34,007 nt of DNA, taken from positions 1 to 34,007 of the forward strand of contig PIVY01000036.1 of NCBI GenBank assembly GCA_003353795.1, read 5' to 3'. Position 1 is the first letter of the stretch. Each line of letters begins with the position of its first letter. Below the pieces are notes generated by a model. That model made no database searches, had not been told where the DNA came from, and saw only the letters and a list, made by a program, of their open reading frames with translations. This document shows positions 7,501 to 31,335 of this stretch, piece by piece. The stretch is from a bacterium. GTDB lineage: Bacteria > Krumholzibacteriota > Krumholzibacteriia > LZORAL124-64-63. The translations under genes were made by a program, and so were the position numbers.

Positions 7501-8526
7501 GTTGAACTTCTGGGTGATCTGGCTGGCGAACGGACCGCTCCAGACGGTGTCGATGCGGGTGTAGTTCAGCCGCTCGAGGTGCTGCTCCTTGAGCCACTGG
7601 TTGACGTAGATCGTGCTCGTGCCCGAGGCGCTCGAGTCGCCCACCAGAAGGGCCGACGTGTACCACTCCGGGTTGGAGAAGGTATCGGGATTCTGCTCGT
7701 ACTCGAGGATCTTGGCGACGATCCCCTCGAGCTCCGGGACGTTGCGGGCGGACAGCCGGCCGATGAGGGCGTCCGACAGCACGTCGTTGCCCTCGAGCTC
7801 GGTGTAGTAGTGGTCGCCCTCGCCCTGGTAGCCGGAGCGGGACTCGCGCCAGCTGGCCACGGCCACGCCCCCGTTGGCGTCGCCCACCAGGCAGATGTGG
7901 ACCAGCGGCTCGTCGGCCGTGTCGTAGACCTGCTGGATGTACGACTTGATCTGCGTGGTGCTGGTACCTGTCTCGGCGGTGGACGCGGCGATCACGTTGT
8001 AGCCCTGCTTGCGGCGCCAGTCGAGCAGCGGCTGCACCGCGCCCATGGCACCGGTGGCCGACGAGACGACCGCCAGGTAAGTGCCCGGCACCACCTGGTA
8101 CCCATCGAGCAACGCGGCGGCGCCGATGACCTCGGCCTCGAGCAGATTGGCAAAGGACCTCGCGATCTTCGTGCGGCGCGGCGCCACGGCCCCGGGATCG
8201 GCGGTGAAGCTCAGGGCGACCTCGCGGCTACGAACCCCGTCGGCGGCCGGAGCCACGGACAGCGGCACGATCTGCATGCCGTGAAGGACGGCAGGCTGCC
8301 CCAGCTCGATGCTGGCCGCGGTGGTGAGCAACTCGGCTCGCTTGCCGGCGGGTACGGCCACCAGCCCCTGCCACGCCTCGGCATCCGCTGGCACGTCCAC
8401 CCGCAGGCGCATTCCGTCGCTGCTGCCAGCGAGGGTGGTCACCGCGGGATCAGGCTTGGCGAGAGCGGTCGAAGCGAGAAGGGCGAGGAGCAGGGTCATG
8501 AGCACGACAACTACGCGAGGACGCAA
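4528..8526 (-). CDS. Gingipain-like (peptidase C25) secreted protein with C-terminal T9SS-type sorting domain
   Basis: VQPLLDWRRKQGYNVIAAST...YIQQVYDTADEPLVHICLVGDANGG...DHYYTELEGNDVLSDALIGRLSA..., C-term LAQNAPNPFNPRTSIAFALP...GTYIYRLVTSNQILTGRMTMVK. Proposed TTG start at 8526, 8 nt after GGAGG, gives signal peptide LRPRVVVVLMTLLLALLASTALA. Homologous to 14110-18774. Confidence 0.88.
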   Translation of the reverse strand: MRPRVVVVLMTLLLALLASTALAKPDPAVTTLAGSSDGMRLRVDVPADAEAWQGLVAVPAGKRAELLTTAASIELGQPAVLHGMQIVPLSVAPAADGVRSREVALSFTADPGAVAPRRTKIARSFANLLEAEVIGAAALLDGYQVVPGTYLAVVSSATGAMGAVQPLLDWRRKQGYNVIAASTAETGTSTTQIKSYIQQVYDTADEPLVHICLVGDANGGVAVASWRESRSGYQGEGDHYYTELEGNDVLSDALIGRLSARNVPELEGIVAKILEYEQNPDTFSNPEWYTSALLVGDSSASGTSTIYVNQWLKEQHLERLNYTRIDTVWSGPFASQITQKFNQGISVYSYRGYLGCSGFSTGYIDNLQNQGELPFAVMPTCASGSFMQTHAYTEAMLRNPHGGAIGAVGTATTGTHTRYNNAYFHGVWEGAMGEPDRTLGYAHNRGKIELYRQYGGNELVKVEIWSVWNNLMGDSATEMRQALPTTPVVSYPAQLPPDAGTLPVTVMSAGLPLEGAQVTVYREGAIQVVARTDAAGQVLLSLPAGAAAGELSVTVTGDDLVPHRGQTMLGAVTAYCVEDGWTWDDGQDGMPDPGETGDLTITVRNLGQQTAGQVSVNLASQTAGVGVGTGVVDLGDLAAGASTPAGPWSVILPDDLPDGASAVLSLTANSGADAWLSRVDLPVSAPAFTIVSASFDGQPGDTGLLSVSLRNDGSVMAPGGMAGFASASSLLLPAGPVDADLGDVAPGATVAVAYDILVSGDAFNGHLASCTLTVTSATGTRQVLDMPVTVGSVNADSPVGNPDLPYLAWDSQDPSPDAPVFAWREIDPNYGGDGVDVGLSDFGYEQDDTDTFDLPFSFLFNGVEYDQISICSNGWIAFGQTYLVHWRNWGLPAAGTPDNMVCVFWDNLAQASTNRVYHEYDADEGVYVVQWSRMRNLLNGLQNCQLILHDTAMHPTATGDGLMVFQYEQATNNDNQRGYATVGLQDGDLGINYTYYNRYAPGARTMQSNMAIAWVPVAEQISAAITVATESIDAILMPGQTVERTLEIDSTGPVGSVLNWQLTLQEASGLLAAGGESRDPSLDLTAPNGGETWLVGQIRTFTWDASADVNLVRLLVDRGQGFELLASDVDASLGSWPWLVTGPASDNCRARVLDQNNVLIADNSDADFSITQEFSWITLSEQSGQTLAGETASVTVTLDATGLPVGQYTVDLVILSSGGSPITVPVNLLVDTSTATPDLPASLQLAQNAPNPFNPRTSIAFALPRDTHVQLTVHDLRGRLVRTLASESMPAGHHDIAFDGTSNDGRRLASGTYIYRLVTSNQILTGRMTMVK

Positions 8527-23804: not shown

Positions 23805-24105
23805 CAGGCAGTCCCTTCGCCGATTTCGAGGCCGGACATTGCTCCCGGAAGGCTCCGCCGGAGCGGATCCGTGAACCGAGAACGATTCTTGCAAACGGAC
23901 TTTCGCGAGGCCCACGGCATGGCGAGCATACGCCTCTGCGCGCCGCCGTGGCCAACGGAATCGCCACTGGAGAATACCAGATGCCGTTGATCCAGAATAC
24001 CTTGCGAGCGTCGACCGTGCAAAATCCACCTTTGAAGTTCGCGCCGATTGTCGCCTATGTTTGCGCCACAGTACGACCCGTCAGTCCGTTCTTCTGGAGG
24101 TTCTC

Positions 24106-25029
24106 ATGCGGAGAATGATCTGCCTCGTCTGCAGCCTCGCGGTCCTGGTCGCAGGACCGGCCGCCTGGAGCGGCGAGTATCTCGATGGCATCGAGGTCCC
24201 CGCCGACGCGACCTACGTCGGGTCGGAAGACTGCCTCGCTTGCCACGAAGAAGTCGGCGAGTTCTACGCCCACTCTCCCCACCTGCCCGAACTCGGCCTT
24301 TCGGTTCCTGGCCGGGCCGACATCTTCGGCTGCGAGGCTTGCCACGGTCCCGGCAGTCTGCACGTCGACGAGGGCGGCGACGGCTGGATCATGGGCCTCG
24401 ACATCATGCGGGCGCTGGACGACGTGAGCCGCGCTAACATGTGCACCCAGTGCCACCTGAGCCTGGACCTGCAGTATGCCGACGGTCCGCACGCGGGCAC
24501 CGAGGTCTCGTGCGCCGATTGCCATGCCGACCAGGTTCACTTCGGCGGCCAGGCCCGACCGGCCAACGAGTACCGCAACCGCTCCGAGTTCTGTCTGCAG
24601 TGCCACACGGCGGTGTCCGCAGCGTTCCGGCTGCCGTTCCGGCACCGCGTGCTCGAGGGCGACATCGGTTGTGCCGATTGCCACGACCACCACGGCGGCA
24701 ACGACCGCACCACCTGGGAAGGCGCCAATGCCACCTGCCTGAGCTGCCACAACCAGATGGCCGGCCCGTTCGTGTTCGAGCACGGCGGCACCACGGGCGA
24801 GCAGTGCACCAGCTGCCACCTGCCCCACGGATCGCACAACGACAAGCTGCTCACCCAGGACGGCAACGGTCTCTGCCTGCAGTGCCACTACGAGGTGGTC
24901 AATGGGGATCCCAGCTTCGACTTCGGCGGCGTCCCCCACAACGGTCTGCTCCAGGGCGAGGCCCGCTGCTACGACTGCCACCGCGAGATCCACGGTTCCA
25001 ACGTGTCCCCGTCCTTCCGGGACCAGTAA
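24106..25029 (+). CDS. DmsE/MtrA-like decaheme c-type cytochrome
   Basis: Signal peptide and ten CxxCH motifs (CLACH, CEACH, CTQCH, CADCH, CLQCH, CADCH, CLSCH, CTSCH, CLQCH, CYDCH). RBS CTGGAGG. Confidence 0.95.
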   Translation: MRRMICLVCSLAVLVAGPAAWSGEYLDGIEVPADATYVGSEDCLACHEEVGEFYAHSPHLPELGLSVPGRADIFGCEACHGPGSLHVDEGGDGWIMGLDIMRALDDVSRANMCTQCHLSLDLQYADGPHAGTEVSCADCHADQVHFGGQARPANEYRNRSEFCLQCHTAVSAAFRLPFRHRVLEGDIGCADCHDHHGGNDRTTWEGANATCLSCHNQMAGPFVFEHGGTTGEQCTSCHLPHGSHNDKLLTQDGNGLCLQCHYEVVNGDPSFDFGGVPHNGLLQGEARCYDCHREIHGSNVSPSFRDQ

Positions 25030-25041
25030 GGAGGCAAGGTC

Positions 25042-26949
25042 ATGAAGACGATCATCACGACGACCGCGCTGATCCTGGTCCTGGCGACGGCCGCGCTGGC
25101 CGGACCGACCCTGCCGGCCCAGGCCCAGCGCATCTGGGCGCCAGAAGGCGACCTGATCAGCTACGACCAGAACCATGCCACGGCGACCCTGATCATCAAC
25201 GACGACCACGGCGACTGGGCCAAGGCCGCCGAGGACTGGGCCATCCGGGGCAAGACCTTCGGCTACGGTCTGTTCAACTACCAGCACACCAGCGACAGCA
25301 ACCATCAGCTCAACGTGCGCGGTGACGGCGGCAACGTCCCCGGCAGCGGCCTGGCGGGCAACGTCGGCCTCTGGTCGTCCACACCCGGCAAGTACCGCGT
25401 GCGCCTGCTCTACAGCAAGCACGACCACTACTACGATCGCGACAGCGAACTGCGCAACCCGGGCTTCCCCTATCCGCCCGAGCCGCCGGCGCTTTCGGAT
25501 TCGCCGCACCTCGACTGGCGCCGCGGCCGACTCGACCTGAGCTGGCACCTTTCCAGCGCCTTCGACGTGACCTTCGGCATTGCCGACCTGCGCCGCGAGG
25601 GCAGCAAGGGCAGCCTGCTTCGCGGAACCTCGGGCGAGGCGCCTCCGGCGGTGCTGAGCCAGAAGACCAAGCAGTACGAAGTGTACCTCGGTGGCGTGTT
25701 CCGGGCCGGCAACCTCGGCGGCGGGTTGACCCTCGCCATGCGCAACGCCGACGGCTGGCGGACCCGCAGCGGGACCAACGGCCACGACTACGACGAGGAG
25801 CGTAAGAGCTACCGCGCCGCCCTCGACCTGGCCTACGACGTGTCCGGCGGCACGCGCCTGGCCGCCTACGGCGCCCTCAATCGCCTCGAGCTCAATGGCC
25901 GGGAGATCTGGGGCGGCGGCGACGGCTCGACCAACAGCGACTCCGAGAACGCGGTGGGCCTGCTGGCTCTGCAGACCCGGCTGGGTCGCAAGACCAACCT
26001 GCTCGCGTCGGCCCGCTTCGAGGGGCTCAAGAACGAGTCCCAGATCGACGACATGGCCGGCGTGCTCTACGCCGGCGACACCGATCGCCAGCGGCAGGAC
26101 TACCGCCTCGTGCTCGGCAACACCAGCCTGCCCCGCACCCGCCTGCGCCTGCAGTACCGCTACACCAACGCCGACCGCGAAGGCGTCACGAGCCAGGATG
26201 GACGGCCGGGCGAACCCACCGTGACGGTGGCCCAGGGCCTGAACGAGAATCGCGTCCGCCACGACGTCGACTTCCGGGCCAACGCCAACCTGAGCAAGGC
26301 CGTGAAGTTCAAGCTGGGCGTGCGGTACAACAAGCAGGACGTCGAGCAGACGGCCTCGGGCGACGACTGGTACGGCATCCTCGGCGACCACAATCGGTCG
26401 CGCCTGGGCTGGACGGCGGCCCTCAAGACCCGCCCGCATCCCAATGTACCGGTAGACCTGGGCTACCAGGGCATCGACCAGACCTTCGAGCGCACCGCCG
26501 GCGAACTGGCCGAGACCACCTGGAAAGCCAACCGCCTGTTCCTCAACATCAACTGGATCGCCAGCGCCCGGCTGTCGATGTACGGCATGGTCAACTACGG
26601 CAAGGAGACCTACGAGCTCACCGGCGTGGGCGACCCCGCTGCCGGCCAAGCCGCGTACGAATACGATGGTCAGACCTGGCGTTTCATTCCCGGTGCGGTG
26701 TTCCACGTCACCAATACACTGGAGCTCGAGGGCATGTGGGAAGGCATCCGGTACGAGAACACCGGCAGCGAGACGGCTGCCCTCGATGCCGTGAAGGCCG
26801 ACCACGACCGGGCGCTGGTGAGGGCCCGCTGGCAGACCACCCCGAAGTTCGCCGTCACGGCGAGCTACCGGCGCAACGAGTTCTTCGAGAACCGGTGGGA
26901 TAACTACATCCAGGATCTCTGGGGATTGTCGGTATCTGGCCTGTTCTGA
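25042..26949 (+). CDS. MtrB/PioB-like outer-membrane beta-barrel
   Basis: Signal peptide MKTIITTTALILVLATAALA, alternating beta-strand pattern (~600 aa), C-terminal ...DLWGLSVSGLF, 13 nt downstream of the decaheme gene. Confidence 0.88.
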   Translation: MKTIITTTALILVLATAALAGPTLPAQAQRIWAPEGDLISYDQNHATATLIINDDHGDWAKAAEDWAIRGKTFGYGLFNYQHTSDSNHQLNVRGDGGNVPGSGLAGNVGLWSSTPGKYRVRLLYSKHDHYYDRDSELRNPGFPYPPEPPALSDSPHLDWRRGRLDLSWHLSSAFDVTFGIADLRREGSKGSLLRGTSGEAPPAVLSQKTKQYEVYLGGVFRAGNLGGGLTLAMRNADGWRTRSGTNGHDYDEERKSYRAALDLAYDVSGGTRLAAYGALNRLELNGREIWGGGDGSTNSDSENAVGLLALQTRLGRKTNLLASARFEGLKNESQIDDMAGVLYAGDTDRQRQDYRLVLGNTSLPRTRLRLQYRYTNADREGVTSQDGRPGEPTVTVAQGLNENRVRHDVDFRANANLSKAVKFKLGVRYNKQDVEQTASGDDWYGILGDHNRSRLGWTAALKTRPHPNVPVDLGYQGIDQTFERTAGELAETTWKANRLFLNINWIASARLSMYGMVNYGKETYELTGVGDPAAGQAAYEYDGQTWRFIPGAVFHVTNTLELEGMWEGIRYENTGSETAALDAVKADHDRALVRARWQTTPKFAVTASYRRNEFFENRWDNYIQDLWGLSVSGLF

Positions 26950-27146: not shown

Positions 27147-27794
27147 ATGTCCGCTACCAACGGCAACCGTAGCCAGCAGATCCTCTCCCGGGCGACCGAC
27201 CTGTTCGCCAAGCACGGGTATGCCGGCACGTCCATCCGTCGGATCGCCCGGGCATGTGGCATCACCGAGGCCGCCATCTACCGCCATTTCCAGAGCAAGA
27301 TGCATCTCTACGAAGAGGTCATCCGGGCCAAGGCGGCCCAGCACGACATTGCCGGATACCTGTCGGAACATGCCGGCCAGGGCTCGGTGCGCGATGCGCT
27401 GATCGCCGTGTCGAGTCATGTCATGAAGCTCACCCACGAGGACCCTGCCCTCGTGCGGCTGATGTTCAACAACAGCCTCGAGAGCGGCGACGTGCCCACC
27501 GTGCTCTTCCAGGAGATCCGCGTGCCCTACATCGAATTCCTCACGCAGGAGTTCGAGCGGCGCATGCAGGAGGGTGAAATCATGCCGGTGGAGGCCTTCC
27601 TCACCGGCCGCTGCTTCGTGGGCATGGTCATGGACTGCGCCCTGAATCTCGGGATCTGGAACACGCTGTTCCCGTCCCGGAATCAACCCGTCGACATCTA
27701 CACCAACACCGCAACGATCTTTGCCAACGGACTGACCAAATCCAGTGACGCCACGACATCGCGTGCCGCGTCCAAACCGGGGAGTACCTCATGA
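27147..27794 (+). CDS. TetR-family transcriptional regulator
   Basis: QQILSRATDLFAKHGYAGTSIRRIARACGITEAAIYRHFQSKMHLYEEVI. Stop overlaps the start of the next gene (ATGA). Confidence 0.93.
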   Translation: MSATNGNRSQQILSRATDLFAKHGYAGTSIRRIARACGITEAAIYRHFQSKMHLYEEVIRAKAAQHDIAGYLSEHAGQGSVRDALIAVSSHVMKLTHEDPALVRLMFNNSLESGDVPTVLFQEIRVPYIEFLTQEFERRMQEGEIMPVEAFLTGRCFVGMVMDCALNLGIWNTLFPSRNQPVDIYTNTATIFANGLTKSSDATTSRAASKPGSTS

Positions 27795-29389
27795 TGCAGC
27801 GATCGATCCTGGTCGTCCTGCCGCTTCTGGTCCTGGCCGCGCTCTGGGGGTGCGATAACGACACCTCCAACGACGTTGCCGGGCCTCCGGGCGGCGGCAG
27901 CACCGACAAGACGTGTATCGGCTGTCACTCCAGCGAGGCCGAGCTCAAGGCCGCGCTGGGAGTCGACGACAAGGGACTGGCCTCCAAGAAGGATCTGGCC
28001 CTGAAGTTCGCCAACAAGGACGACGGCTGAGGCGGCTCAGTACCCGAGCTGGAAGCTTGGGAAAAGGTCATCATCACCGGTTCCAACGGCGATCGGTTCC
28101 TCAACAGCATCCACGGCCCCGGCTACGAGGGCACGGACAACCCGACGCCCCATACGTTGACGTGCCAGCATTGCCACGCCGGCGCCCCGGACTTCGGGTT
28201 CAACACCATGGAAGAGGCCCACACGGGAATGTTCCGCGACCCCAGTGTGCCCGGCGAGACCGGCTGCACGGCCTGCCATGAGGAGAGCTTCGCGCGGTCG
28301 GCCTGCGACCAGTGCCACACCAACGCGGTCACCGTCACGGCCACCAGCCTGCACACCACGTTGCAGGGTTACAAGACGGCTATCGAGGATCGTTGCGGAC
28401 GTGACTTCGACGACCTGGGTATCGAAGAGCCCTTCGAGGTGCGTTGCGCCGGCTGCCACACCACGTGCGGCCAGTGCCACGTCTCGCGCCCCAACTCGGT
28501 GGGCGGTGGTTTCCCGAAGATCGGCGCGTACTACTCGCACCGCTTCCGCCAGTCGCCCGACATGAACGAGCAGTGCACCGCCTGCCACGGCAGCCGCGTG
28601 GGCGTCGACTTCAAGGGCGAACTCGAAGGCAACGTGCCCGACGTGCACCGCACCGCCGGCCAGCAGTGCAACTACTGCCACGGCAAGGACGAGATCCACG
28701 GCGACGGCACCGAGTACGACCACCGCTACGAGGTGGCCAACATGCCCCGCTGCGAGAACTGCCACGAGAGCGACATCCAGGTCCCCGCGGGAACCGGCGA
28801 CTGCACGTCGTGCCATCCGGACGGCTTCGGCAGCGCCACGGTCTCGGCCGCCGACAAGAATCACGCCCACCACGGTGGCGTGTCCGTCGACTGCAGTCAC
28901 TGTCACGATCCCGTGCCGGGCGTGTCCCTGCCGGTGGCGCAGTGCCAGACCTGCCACTCGCAGCCCTACAAGAACTGCACGAACTGCCACAACCTGACCG
29001 ACGAGGGCTTCGACATCAACGAGAGCATCGTGCAGCTCAAGATCGGGCGCAATCCGAGCCCGCATCGCGCCGAGTACGACATCGCGATCGTGCGGCACAC
29101 GCCCATCGATCCCAACACCTTCGCCAACTGGGGCCTCGACCTGCCCGACTACCTGACGAAGTCGACCTGGCAGTACGCGTCGCCTCACAACGTCCTGCGC
29201 TCCACCCCGCAGACCACGGTGGAGGCCGGCCAGTCCTGCGCCGCCAGTTGCCATGGTTCGCCGGATGGTCCGCAGGGATACCTGCTCAGGGAAACCGACC
29301 TCTACGAAGCCGACGGAACCACGCCGCTGGTCGACTACCAGGCCAACATCGACTACGTGATTCCCGAGAGCTTCCCGGCAGGAAAGTAG
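27791..29389 (+). CDS. Outer-membrane multiheme c-type cytochrome lipoprotein with in-frame TGA (candidate selenocysteine at codon 80)
   Basis: Lipoprotein signal MMQRSILVVLPLLVLAALWGC. One CxxCH before and twelve after the TGA at 28028-28030, plus one CxxxCH (CAASCH). Frame open on both sides; downstream segment GGSVPELEAWEKVIITGSNGDRFLNSIHGPGYEG. Confidence 0.85.
28043..28061 (+). promoter_or_regulatory. bSECIS-like hairpin
   Basis: CCCGAGCT-GGA-AGCTTGGG: 8-bp stem (one G-U) with apical loop GGA, beginning 12 nt after the TGA; apical loop 20 nt after it. Confidence 0.55.
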
Positions 29390-29496: not shown

Positions 29497-31335
29497 ATGA
29501 AACTTCACAAGACTTGGCTCATCCTGATGCTGGTCGCCCTGGTGGCCTTCATGGGTTGTTCGGACGACGACGATCCCGTGACGCCTCCCGGCGCGACCGA
29601 CTTCGAGACCATGGCTGCCGCCGGCACGGCATACGTCAACGACAACACCATCTGCCCGGGCGTCATCAACGCTCAGGTGGTGTACGACAACCTCGCTGAC
29701 TACACGGTCATCGACATCCGCTCCGAGGCCGCCTACCTGGCCGGCCACATCCCCGGCGCCTACCACAGCGGCCTCAGCACCCTGATCGCCGACCTGGCCA
29801 ACATCCCCAGTGACAAGCCCTACGTGATCGCGTGCTACAGCGGCCAGTCGGCCGGCCATGCCAAGATCGCCATGGAGATGCTGGGCTATGAGGACGTCTA
29901 CAGCCTGCTCTTCGGCATGTCCTCCTGGAGCCTGGACCTCGACAGCTGGTCCGGCAAATGCGCCAACGAGCTGGCCGTCGCCGAGACCGACCCCCAGAAC
30001 GACAACCTCACCGAGCACAGCTTCCCCGAGATCGCCGGCTCCGTCGAGGAGCGCGTGGCCGCCATGCTGGCCGCCGGCTTCAAGGCCAAGAGCTACGCCG
30101 ACATTGAGACCAACCTGGAAGAATACTTCATCCTCAACTACTTCGGCGAAGACGACTACCTGGGTGACGGCGAGGCCGGCGTCCCGGGACACATCCCCGG
30201 CGCCTTCCAGTTCACGCCGTACGCCAGCATGGGCATGGACGAGATGCTCATGAACATCCCCATGGACATGCCCGTGATCGTCTACTGCTGGACCGGTCAG
30301 CACTCGAGCCAGATCACCGCCTACCTGAACATGTGCGGATACGAGGCCTATAGCCTCAAGAACGGTTCGAACAACCTGTTCTACGACGCCCTGACCGCCC
30401 ACAAGTGGGGCCCCGGTGCGCAGCACGACTTCGAGCTCGAGACCGGCGCCATGCCCGACGAGACCTTCGAGACCATCGCCACGGCGCTGGCCGACTACCT
30501 GAACGACTCGGCCGACTGCCCGGGCGTGGTCAACGCTCAGGTCGTCTACGACAACCTCGAGGACTACACGGTCATCGACATCCGGCAGCTGGTCGACTAC
30601 GACGCTGGTCACATCGCCGGCGCGTACCACAGCAGCCTCGCGACCCTGCTGACCGACGTCGGCACCACCATCCCCACCGACAACCCGTTCGTGATCGCTT
30701 GCTACAGCGGCCAGAGCGCGGGCCACGCCAAGATCGCCATGGAGTTGGCGGGCTACGAGAACACCCAGAGCCTGCTCTTCGGCATGTCCTCCTGGAGTTC
30801 GGACCCCGACCTCGACAAGTGGACCTCCAAGTGCCTGAACCTCCTGCCCGTGGCCGAGACCGAGAACCAGAACGGCGACCTCGTGGGCTACAACTACCCC
30901 TCGCTGACCGGTGAGACGGTGGCTTCGCGGGTGGACGCCATGCTGGCCGCCGGCTTCAAGGCTACCAGCTACACGGCCATCCAGGACAACCTGGAAGACT
31001 ACTTCATCGTCAACTACTTCGGTGAGGCCGACTACCTGGGTGACGGCGATTCCGGCGTCCCGGGCCACATCCCCGGCGCGTTCCAGTTCACGCCGTATGC
31101 GAGCATGGGCCTGGGCCAGATGCTGGCCAACCTGCCCACCGACATGCCGATCGTGGTCTACTGCTGGACCGGTCAGCACTCCAGCCAGGTCACCGCATAC
31201 CTGAACATGCTGGGATACGATGCCTACAGCCTGGCCAACGGCTCCAACAACCTGTTCTACGACAGCCTGACGGCCCACAAGTGGGGCCCCGGCGCCATGC
31301 ACGACTTCCCGCTGGAAGTGACGCCGGGCAAATAG
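29497..31335 (+). CDS. Rhodanese-like lipoprotein with four rhodanese-type domains (tandem duplication of a two-domain unit)
   Basis: Lipobox VALVAFMGC. Active-site-like loops CYSGQSAGH, CWTGQHSSQ, CYSGQSAGH, CWTGQHSSQ; repeated CPGVxNAQVVYDNLxDYTVIDIR. Confidence 0.93.
   Translation: MKLHKTWLILMLVALVAFMGCSDDDDPVTPPGATDFETMAAAGTAYVNDNTICPGVINAQVVYDNLADYTVIDIRSEAAYLAGHIPGAYHSGLSTLIADLANIPSDKPYVIACYSGQSAGHAKIAMEMLGYEDVYSLLFGMSSWSLDLDSWSGKCANELAVAETDPQNDNLTEHSFPEIAGSVEERVAAMLAAGFKAKSYADIETNLEEYFILNYFGEDDYLGDGEAGVPGHIPGAFQFTPYASMGMDEMLMNIPMDMPVIVYCWTGQHSSQITAYLNMCGYEAYSLKNGSNNLFYDALTAHKWGPGAQHDFELETGAMPDETFETIATALADYLNDSADCPGVVNAQVVYDNLEDYTVIDIRQLVDYDAGHIAGAYHSSLATLLTDVGTTIPTDNPFVIACYSGQSAGHAKIAMELAGYENTQSLLFGMSSWSSDPDLDKWTSKCLNLLPVAETENQNGDLVGYNYPSLTGETVASRVDAMLAAGFKATSYTAIQDNLEDYFIVNYFGEADYLGDGDSGVPGHIPGAFQFTPYASMGLGQMLANLPTDMPIVVYCWTGQHSSQVTAYLNMLGYDAYSLANGSNNLFYDSLTAHKWGPGAMHDFPLEVTPGK

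Follow-up and report, generated by a model that had tools for sequence, protein, structure and literature searches.

The window analyzed here, i.e., the whole stretch of 34,007 nucleotides of contig PIVY01000036.1, belongs to a Krumholzibacteriota MAG of 953 contigs, estimated to be 86% complete. It contains a multiheme cytochrome gene interrupted by an in-frame TGA, and the genes around it follow the order found in Krumholzibacteria, namely a decaheme cytochrome, an outer-membrane barrel, a TetR-family regulator, the cytochrome with the TGA and a rhodanese-repeat lipoprotein (Table 1). The barrel has no Pfam family, and its predicted model finds its best PDB match in 6r2q_B, the MtrB protein of the Mtr complex (E 1.3e-14, TM 0.66). 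A weak likeness of the barrel to NF041027, the GSU2204 family, which is itself a listed selenoprotein family, was also observed.

Table 1. Features of the seleno-cytochrome locus (positions in the window).
Feature	Position	Strand	Evidence and remarks
Decaheme MtrA/DmsE-like c-type cytochrome (GSU2203/DmsE-type)	24061..25029	+	NCBIfam NF041028 7.8e-57, TIGR03508 8.5e-54, both below the curated cut-offs (TIGR03508: 182.7 bits vs 192.2)
MtrB-like outer-membrane beta-barrel	25042..26949	+	AF2 pLDDT 82.6, about 26 strands
TetR-family regulator, flanked by the conduit genes and the seleno-cytochrome	27147..27794	+	Pfam TetR_N 2.4e-17; conserved in 24 loci
Sec-containing multiheme cytochrome lipoprotein gene (probable selenoprotein)	27791..29389	+	532 aa, 13 CxxCH + 1 CX3CH
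In-frame UGA, probable Sec, residue 80, motif [DE]GUGG	28028..28030	+	TGA in 80/83 homologues; 26/29 phylum matches
bSECIS hairpin CCCGAGCU-GGA-AGCUUGGG	28043..28061	+	8 bp stem, GGA loop 20 nt past the UGA
Lipoprotein of four rhodanese domains, conserved partner	29497..31335	+	Pfam PF00581; CYSGQ / CWTGQ loops

The start codon of the cytochrome gene overlaps the stop codon of the TetR gene (ATGA). Between this ATG and the terminal TAG (29387-29389) the TGA is the sole internal in-frame stop, as already noted in the preliminary description, which had placed it between the part carrying the signal and first heme and the rest of the protein. Reading through it, a single CxxCH motif precedes residue 80 and 12 follow. 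The earlier count of 13 CxxCH motifs is thus correct, but it had missed an additional CX3CH at residues 483-488. The part downstream of the TGA is devoid of a signal peptide of its own, again in agreement with that description, and the lipobox cysteine (C21) is kept in 76 of 83 homologues; from the lipobox and the neighbouring genes, an outer-membrane lipoprotein exposed at the cell surface is inferred. Residue 80 sits in a glycine-rich loop between heme 1 and heme 2, in a region of lower confidence in the structure prediction, which is probably flexible. No NCBIfam family could be assigned to the cytochrome, the only matches being weak, local and around the heme motifs; Pfam returned generic heme domains only, the PDB, searched both by sequence and by fold, gave nothing useful and no solved fold that matches, and a viral fold library gave no match.

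Conservation of the UGA codon

In the 85,462 species genomes scanned, 314 relatives were found, the best 80 of which were kept. They are spread over about a dozen phyla, namely Krumholzibacteriota, KSB1, Neomarinimicrobiota, Calditrichota, Eisenbacteria, Gemmatimonadota, Planctomycetota (Phycisphaerae), Chloroflexota, Actinomycetota, Myxococcota, Thermodesulfobacteriota and others, the labels being taken from the titles under which the records were deposited, and some of these may be wrong. Many of the records of the closest homologues are named Candidatus Krumholzibacteriota. Within the home phylum, 29 of 80 genomes contain a homologue, which in 26 cases has exactly one in-frame TGA.

In the alignment of 83 sequences, the column of residue 80 is occupied by TGA in 80 and by CAA (Gln), TGG (Trp) and CGG (Arg) in one each. 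Cys is found in none of the 83, so that the usual Sec/Cys pairing on which discovery screens rely, without strictly requiring it, is absent. Thus, the expectation of TGA or Cys at this column, put forward in the preliminary description, was borne out for TGA, while the exceptions turned out to be Gln, Trp and Arg. The search itself could not favour TGA, since one of the search patterns had Cys codons at this stretch. Both flanks of the UGA are conserved (GUGG..P.LEAWE), with [DE]GUGG as the local motif in most members; in the Gln and Trp homologues the flanking glycines have drifted as well. An assembly error as the source of the TGA is ruled out, as the codon is kept in about 80 independent assemblies.

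These data bear directly on the possibility that the UGA is a real stop, giving a mono-heme lipoprotein of 79 amino acids followed by a separately started cytochrome, or else a pseudogene. A later in-frame start (TTG 28157) does open a frame of 410 amino acids. Nevertheless, both flanks of the UGA are conserved among the 83 homologues, the downstream product would have no signal peptide, no other disabling change is present in the gene, and three homologues carry a sense codon in place of the stop; a genuine termination codon is therefore extremely improbable. The pseudogene was rejected on account of the conserved flanks and the lack of further disabling changes.

The bSECIS hairpin and the selenocysteine machinery

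The hairpin that follows the TGA is present in both the MFE and the centroid fold. According to the published limits, a bSECIS element has a loop of 3-9 nt, a stem of 4-16 bp, a spacing of 16-37 nt, a G in the first two loop positions and an MFE <= -7.5 (PMC13188914). The hairpin of the window falls within every one of them, with a loop of 3 nt, a stem of 8 bp, a spacing of 20 nt and -12.1 kcal/mol (30-nt window). Among the homologues with TGA, 77 of 80 have a G within the first two loop positions, and their hairpins occur in two main registers, with the first loop base either 21 or 18 nt downstream. In the first register, the pair 17-27 covaries, being C-G in 23 sequences and A-T in 13; the swap at position 17 changes Glu to Ala, whereas position 27 is the third base of an Ala codon.

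Dinucleotide shuffling of the hairpin of the window gave a z of -1.58, so that a single hairpin is not decisive on its own; what decides is a comparative test in which codons 2-11 past the TGA were recoded synonymously with the codon usage of each gene. The mean z was -1.97 (mean MFE -11.5) at the hairpin vs -0.21 (-5.0) for 960 control windows taken from elsewhere in these genes, a contrast whose p of 3.6e-30 is nominal, the homologues being related to each other. In the three Sec-less homologues the hairpin has decayed, with z values of -0.23, +1.76 (the Trp homologue) and +0.38. On this comparative sequence evidence the hairpin is under selection at the RNA level, and the bSECIS-like element that had been proposed past the TGA holds up, given the agreement with the published limits, the covariation and the greater stability compared with synonymous recodings.

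The machinery for Sec insertion, whose presence in the genome had been named as a check, was found in full: selA (451 bits), selB (331 bits), a tRNA-Sec with anticodon TCA (70.6 bits) and selD. The selD gene (L170, C77) carries an in-frame TGA too, i.e., SelD is itself a selenoprotein (SAGUAAK). The hairpin after the TGA of selD has the apical loop GGA, the same as that of the cytochrome. Among near relatives, selA was found in 41 of 43 genomes and selB over the cut-off in 39 of 43.

The UGA could also be read as another amino acid, by Trp suppression or by a change of the code. One homologue does have TGG at this column. The other two exceptions are Gln and Arg, the selected hairpin is gone precisely in the Trp homologue, the Sec machinery is present, and TGA terminates homologous genes in relatives, all of which makes this reading very improbable; Trp suppression in particular was rejected. 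The hairpin would then recruit SelB and tRNA-Sec(UCA), which would decode the UGA as Sec80. In conclusion, the assignment of Sec to residue 80 made in the preliminary description is strongly supported by the machinery, the TGA in 80 of 83 homologues and the conserved bSECIS hairpin, and we give a probability of roughly 0.93 that the cytochrome gene, as judged from its sequence and those of its relatives, encodes a genuine selenoprotein. Gene callers split the genes of selenoproteins at the UGA, as had been anticipated for this gene, and this is the usual cause of their being missed; the present family runs this risk in many phyla of uncultured bacteria.

The rhodanese partner and the losses of Sec

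Across phyla, a rhodanese-repeat lipoprotein adjoins the cytochrome gene in 75 of 81 loci (74, plus L052 detected by tblastn), either downstream or upstream of it; for the clustering of neighbours, ORFs were chosen with conservation weighting. Over the family, the partner has two to four rhodanese domains, and their loops read CYTGQ, CWTGQ or CYSGQ, which means that the catalytic Cys has been retained. In L060, the rhodanese ORF is broken at 8480-8495 and resumes as a second ORF, apparently owing to a frameshift.

The three Sec-less homologues are L049 (genome G001), L064 (genome G015) and L084. A genome-wide search showed that the rhodanese partner is absent from all three genomes, where only unrelated single-domain rhodaneses were found; the contig of L064 in G015 stops just past the cytochrome gene. 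By comparison, the partner is present at the locus or elsewhere in the assembly for 76 of 78 Sec-containing loci, and the remaining two (L076 and L077) both lie on short contigs. The association is significant by Fisher's test (p 1.2e-4), but the tree contains only three separate losses of Sec, on which a sign test cannot reach 0.05. Since G001 and G015 keep selA and selB, it was not a lack of the machinery that forced them to give up Sec. With only three independent losses, a link between the retention of Sec and the rhodanese partner is suggestive rather than proven. The combination of Sec, a multiheme cytochrome and a rhodanese is rarely seen, and the coincidence of three independent losses of Sec with the absence of the rhodanese provides a testable hypothesis on extracellular respiration of sulfur or selenium. 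It also suggests a task for Sec here that Cys could not fulfil.

A different role for Sec80 is conceivable, namely that of an axial heme ligand or of a structural element tuning one heme, rather than that of a catalytic nucleophile. In the alignment of the homologues, 11 heme motifs are conserved against only 10 invariant or near-invariant histidines outside the motifs, so that one heme lacks a conserved distal His and may be either open at this site or bound by a different ligand; moreover, Sec is never replaced by Cys. However, the Sec-less homologues retain the same hemes and histidines, the loss of Sec accompanies the absence of the rhodanese, and the Sec region is probably flexible. A ligand or structural role is thus considered unlikely.

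Putative function and relation to known systems

In the window, an MtrA/DmsE-like decaheme cytochrome and an MtrB-like barrel stand beside a multiheme lipoprotein of the surface type, as in the MtrABC and OmcA-MtrC systems; the difference is that an unrelated seleno-cytochrome occupies the position of MtrC and that a rhodanese is added. Among the 81 loci, no MtrB-like gene was detected beside the cytochrome outside Krumholzibacteria, so the conduit is not universal. In other phyla the neighbours include QrcA-like and other cytochromes, a sigma-54 activator and a MerR regulator. The latter lies directly before the seleno-cytochrome gene in Neomarinimicrobiota (L126:9534-10004 and relatives), a hint of regulation by metal(loid)s or redox conditions. 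Two further conserved neighbours (L114:12855-14060 and L115:12438-13652) match no Pfam or NCBIfam family above threshold.

This arrangement leads us to infer a reductase at the outer surface, where Sec would act on a chalcogen bound to the rhodanese and the electrons would come through an Mtr-type conduit. The seleno-cytochrome would hold the place of MtrC/OmcA in an MtrAB conduit, as the gene neighbourhood suggests, and its hemes would receive electrons from the periplasm by way of the decaheme MtrA-like cytochrome, which would be housed in the MtrB-like barrel. The reactive centre would be Sec80, partnered with the adjacent rhodanese-repeat lipoprotein, whose cysteines would carry sulfane sulfur (as persulfide or polysulfide). 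The selenolate would attack this sulfur, and heme electrons would resolve the resulting Se-S bond with the release of sulfide. That the members form an uncatalogued extracellular family of about a dozen phyla, with Sec never replaced by Cys, a Sec-rhodanese site for chalcogen reduction and an Mtr-type conduit, has, taken as a whole, a nearly even chance of being right; polysulfide or elemental sulfur as the substrate is proposed tentatively. A precedent is offered by polysulfide respiration with Sud, where an exported sulfurtransferase likewise stands beside a reductase. Sud, a periplasmic rhodanese-like sulfurtransferase, is cited as carrying sulfur chains with as many as ten atoms (PMC3397948). 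The reductase of that system is a molybdoenzyme, whereas here a seleno-cytochrome is found with a lipoprotein made up of two to four rhodanese domains.

The nearest analogue is the ext cluster of Geobacter sulfurreducens, in which the predicted ExtKL (NF040886) is likewise a multiheme c-type cytochrome with an in-frame TGA, accompanied by ExtH, which is a rhodanese lipoprotein, and by ExtI, a barrel of the outer membrane (PMC5877670, PMC6148476). ExtKL is a pentaheme protein with the TGA between extK and extL, whereas in the present family, with its 11 or more hemes, Sec comes after the first of them. None of 62 members of the present family matches NF040886 at E<0.01, and the rhodanese of the window scores 18.1 bits against the ExtH model (NF040901), whose curated cut-off is 200. 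The two systems are apparently non-homologous, the same functional kit having been put together from different parts.

The ext cluster also leads to the possibility that Sec is inserted as described and that the substrate is selenite, tellurite or metal oxides instead of sulfur. In addition to the shared ingredients, the loss of extI impairs the reduction of selenite and tellurite (PMC5877670, PMC6148476), MtrAB-type genes lie upstream of the cytochrome, and the MerR-type regulator adjoins it in Neomarinimicrobiota. On the other hand, by NCBIfam the cytochrome and the rhodanese fall outside ExtKL and ExtH, and rhodanese repeats indicate sulfane sulfur in the first place; selenium or metal substrates are therefore regarded as possible, though rather doubtful.

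A 2026 inventory of 119 selenoprotein families includes ExtKL, GSU2204 and the octaheme TIGR04315; nothing in it matches the seleno-cytochrome family, for which NCBIfam has no model either. No description was found in the literature covered, outside of which lie subscription papers and preprints, so that a prior description elsewhere is possible. A weak local match around the heme motifs links 38 of 62 members (best 6.4e-12) to ExtM (NF040943), a 12-heme cytochrome of the ext cluster, and the cytochrome of the window scores 19.9 bits vs the cut-off of 800 of this model; this may reflect remote kinship or a similarity of the heme motifs. A separate ExtM-like gene occurs in one genome that also holds a member of the seleno-cytochrome family.
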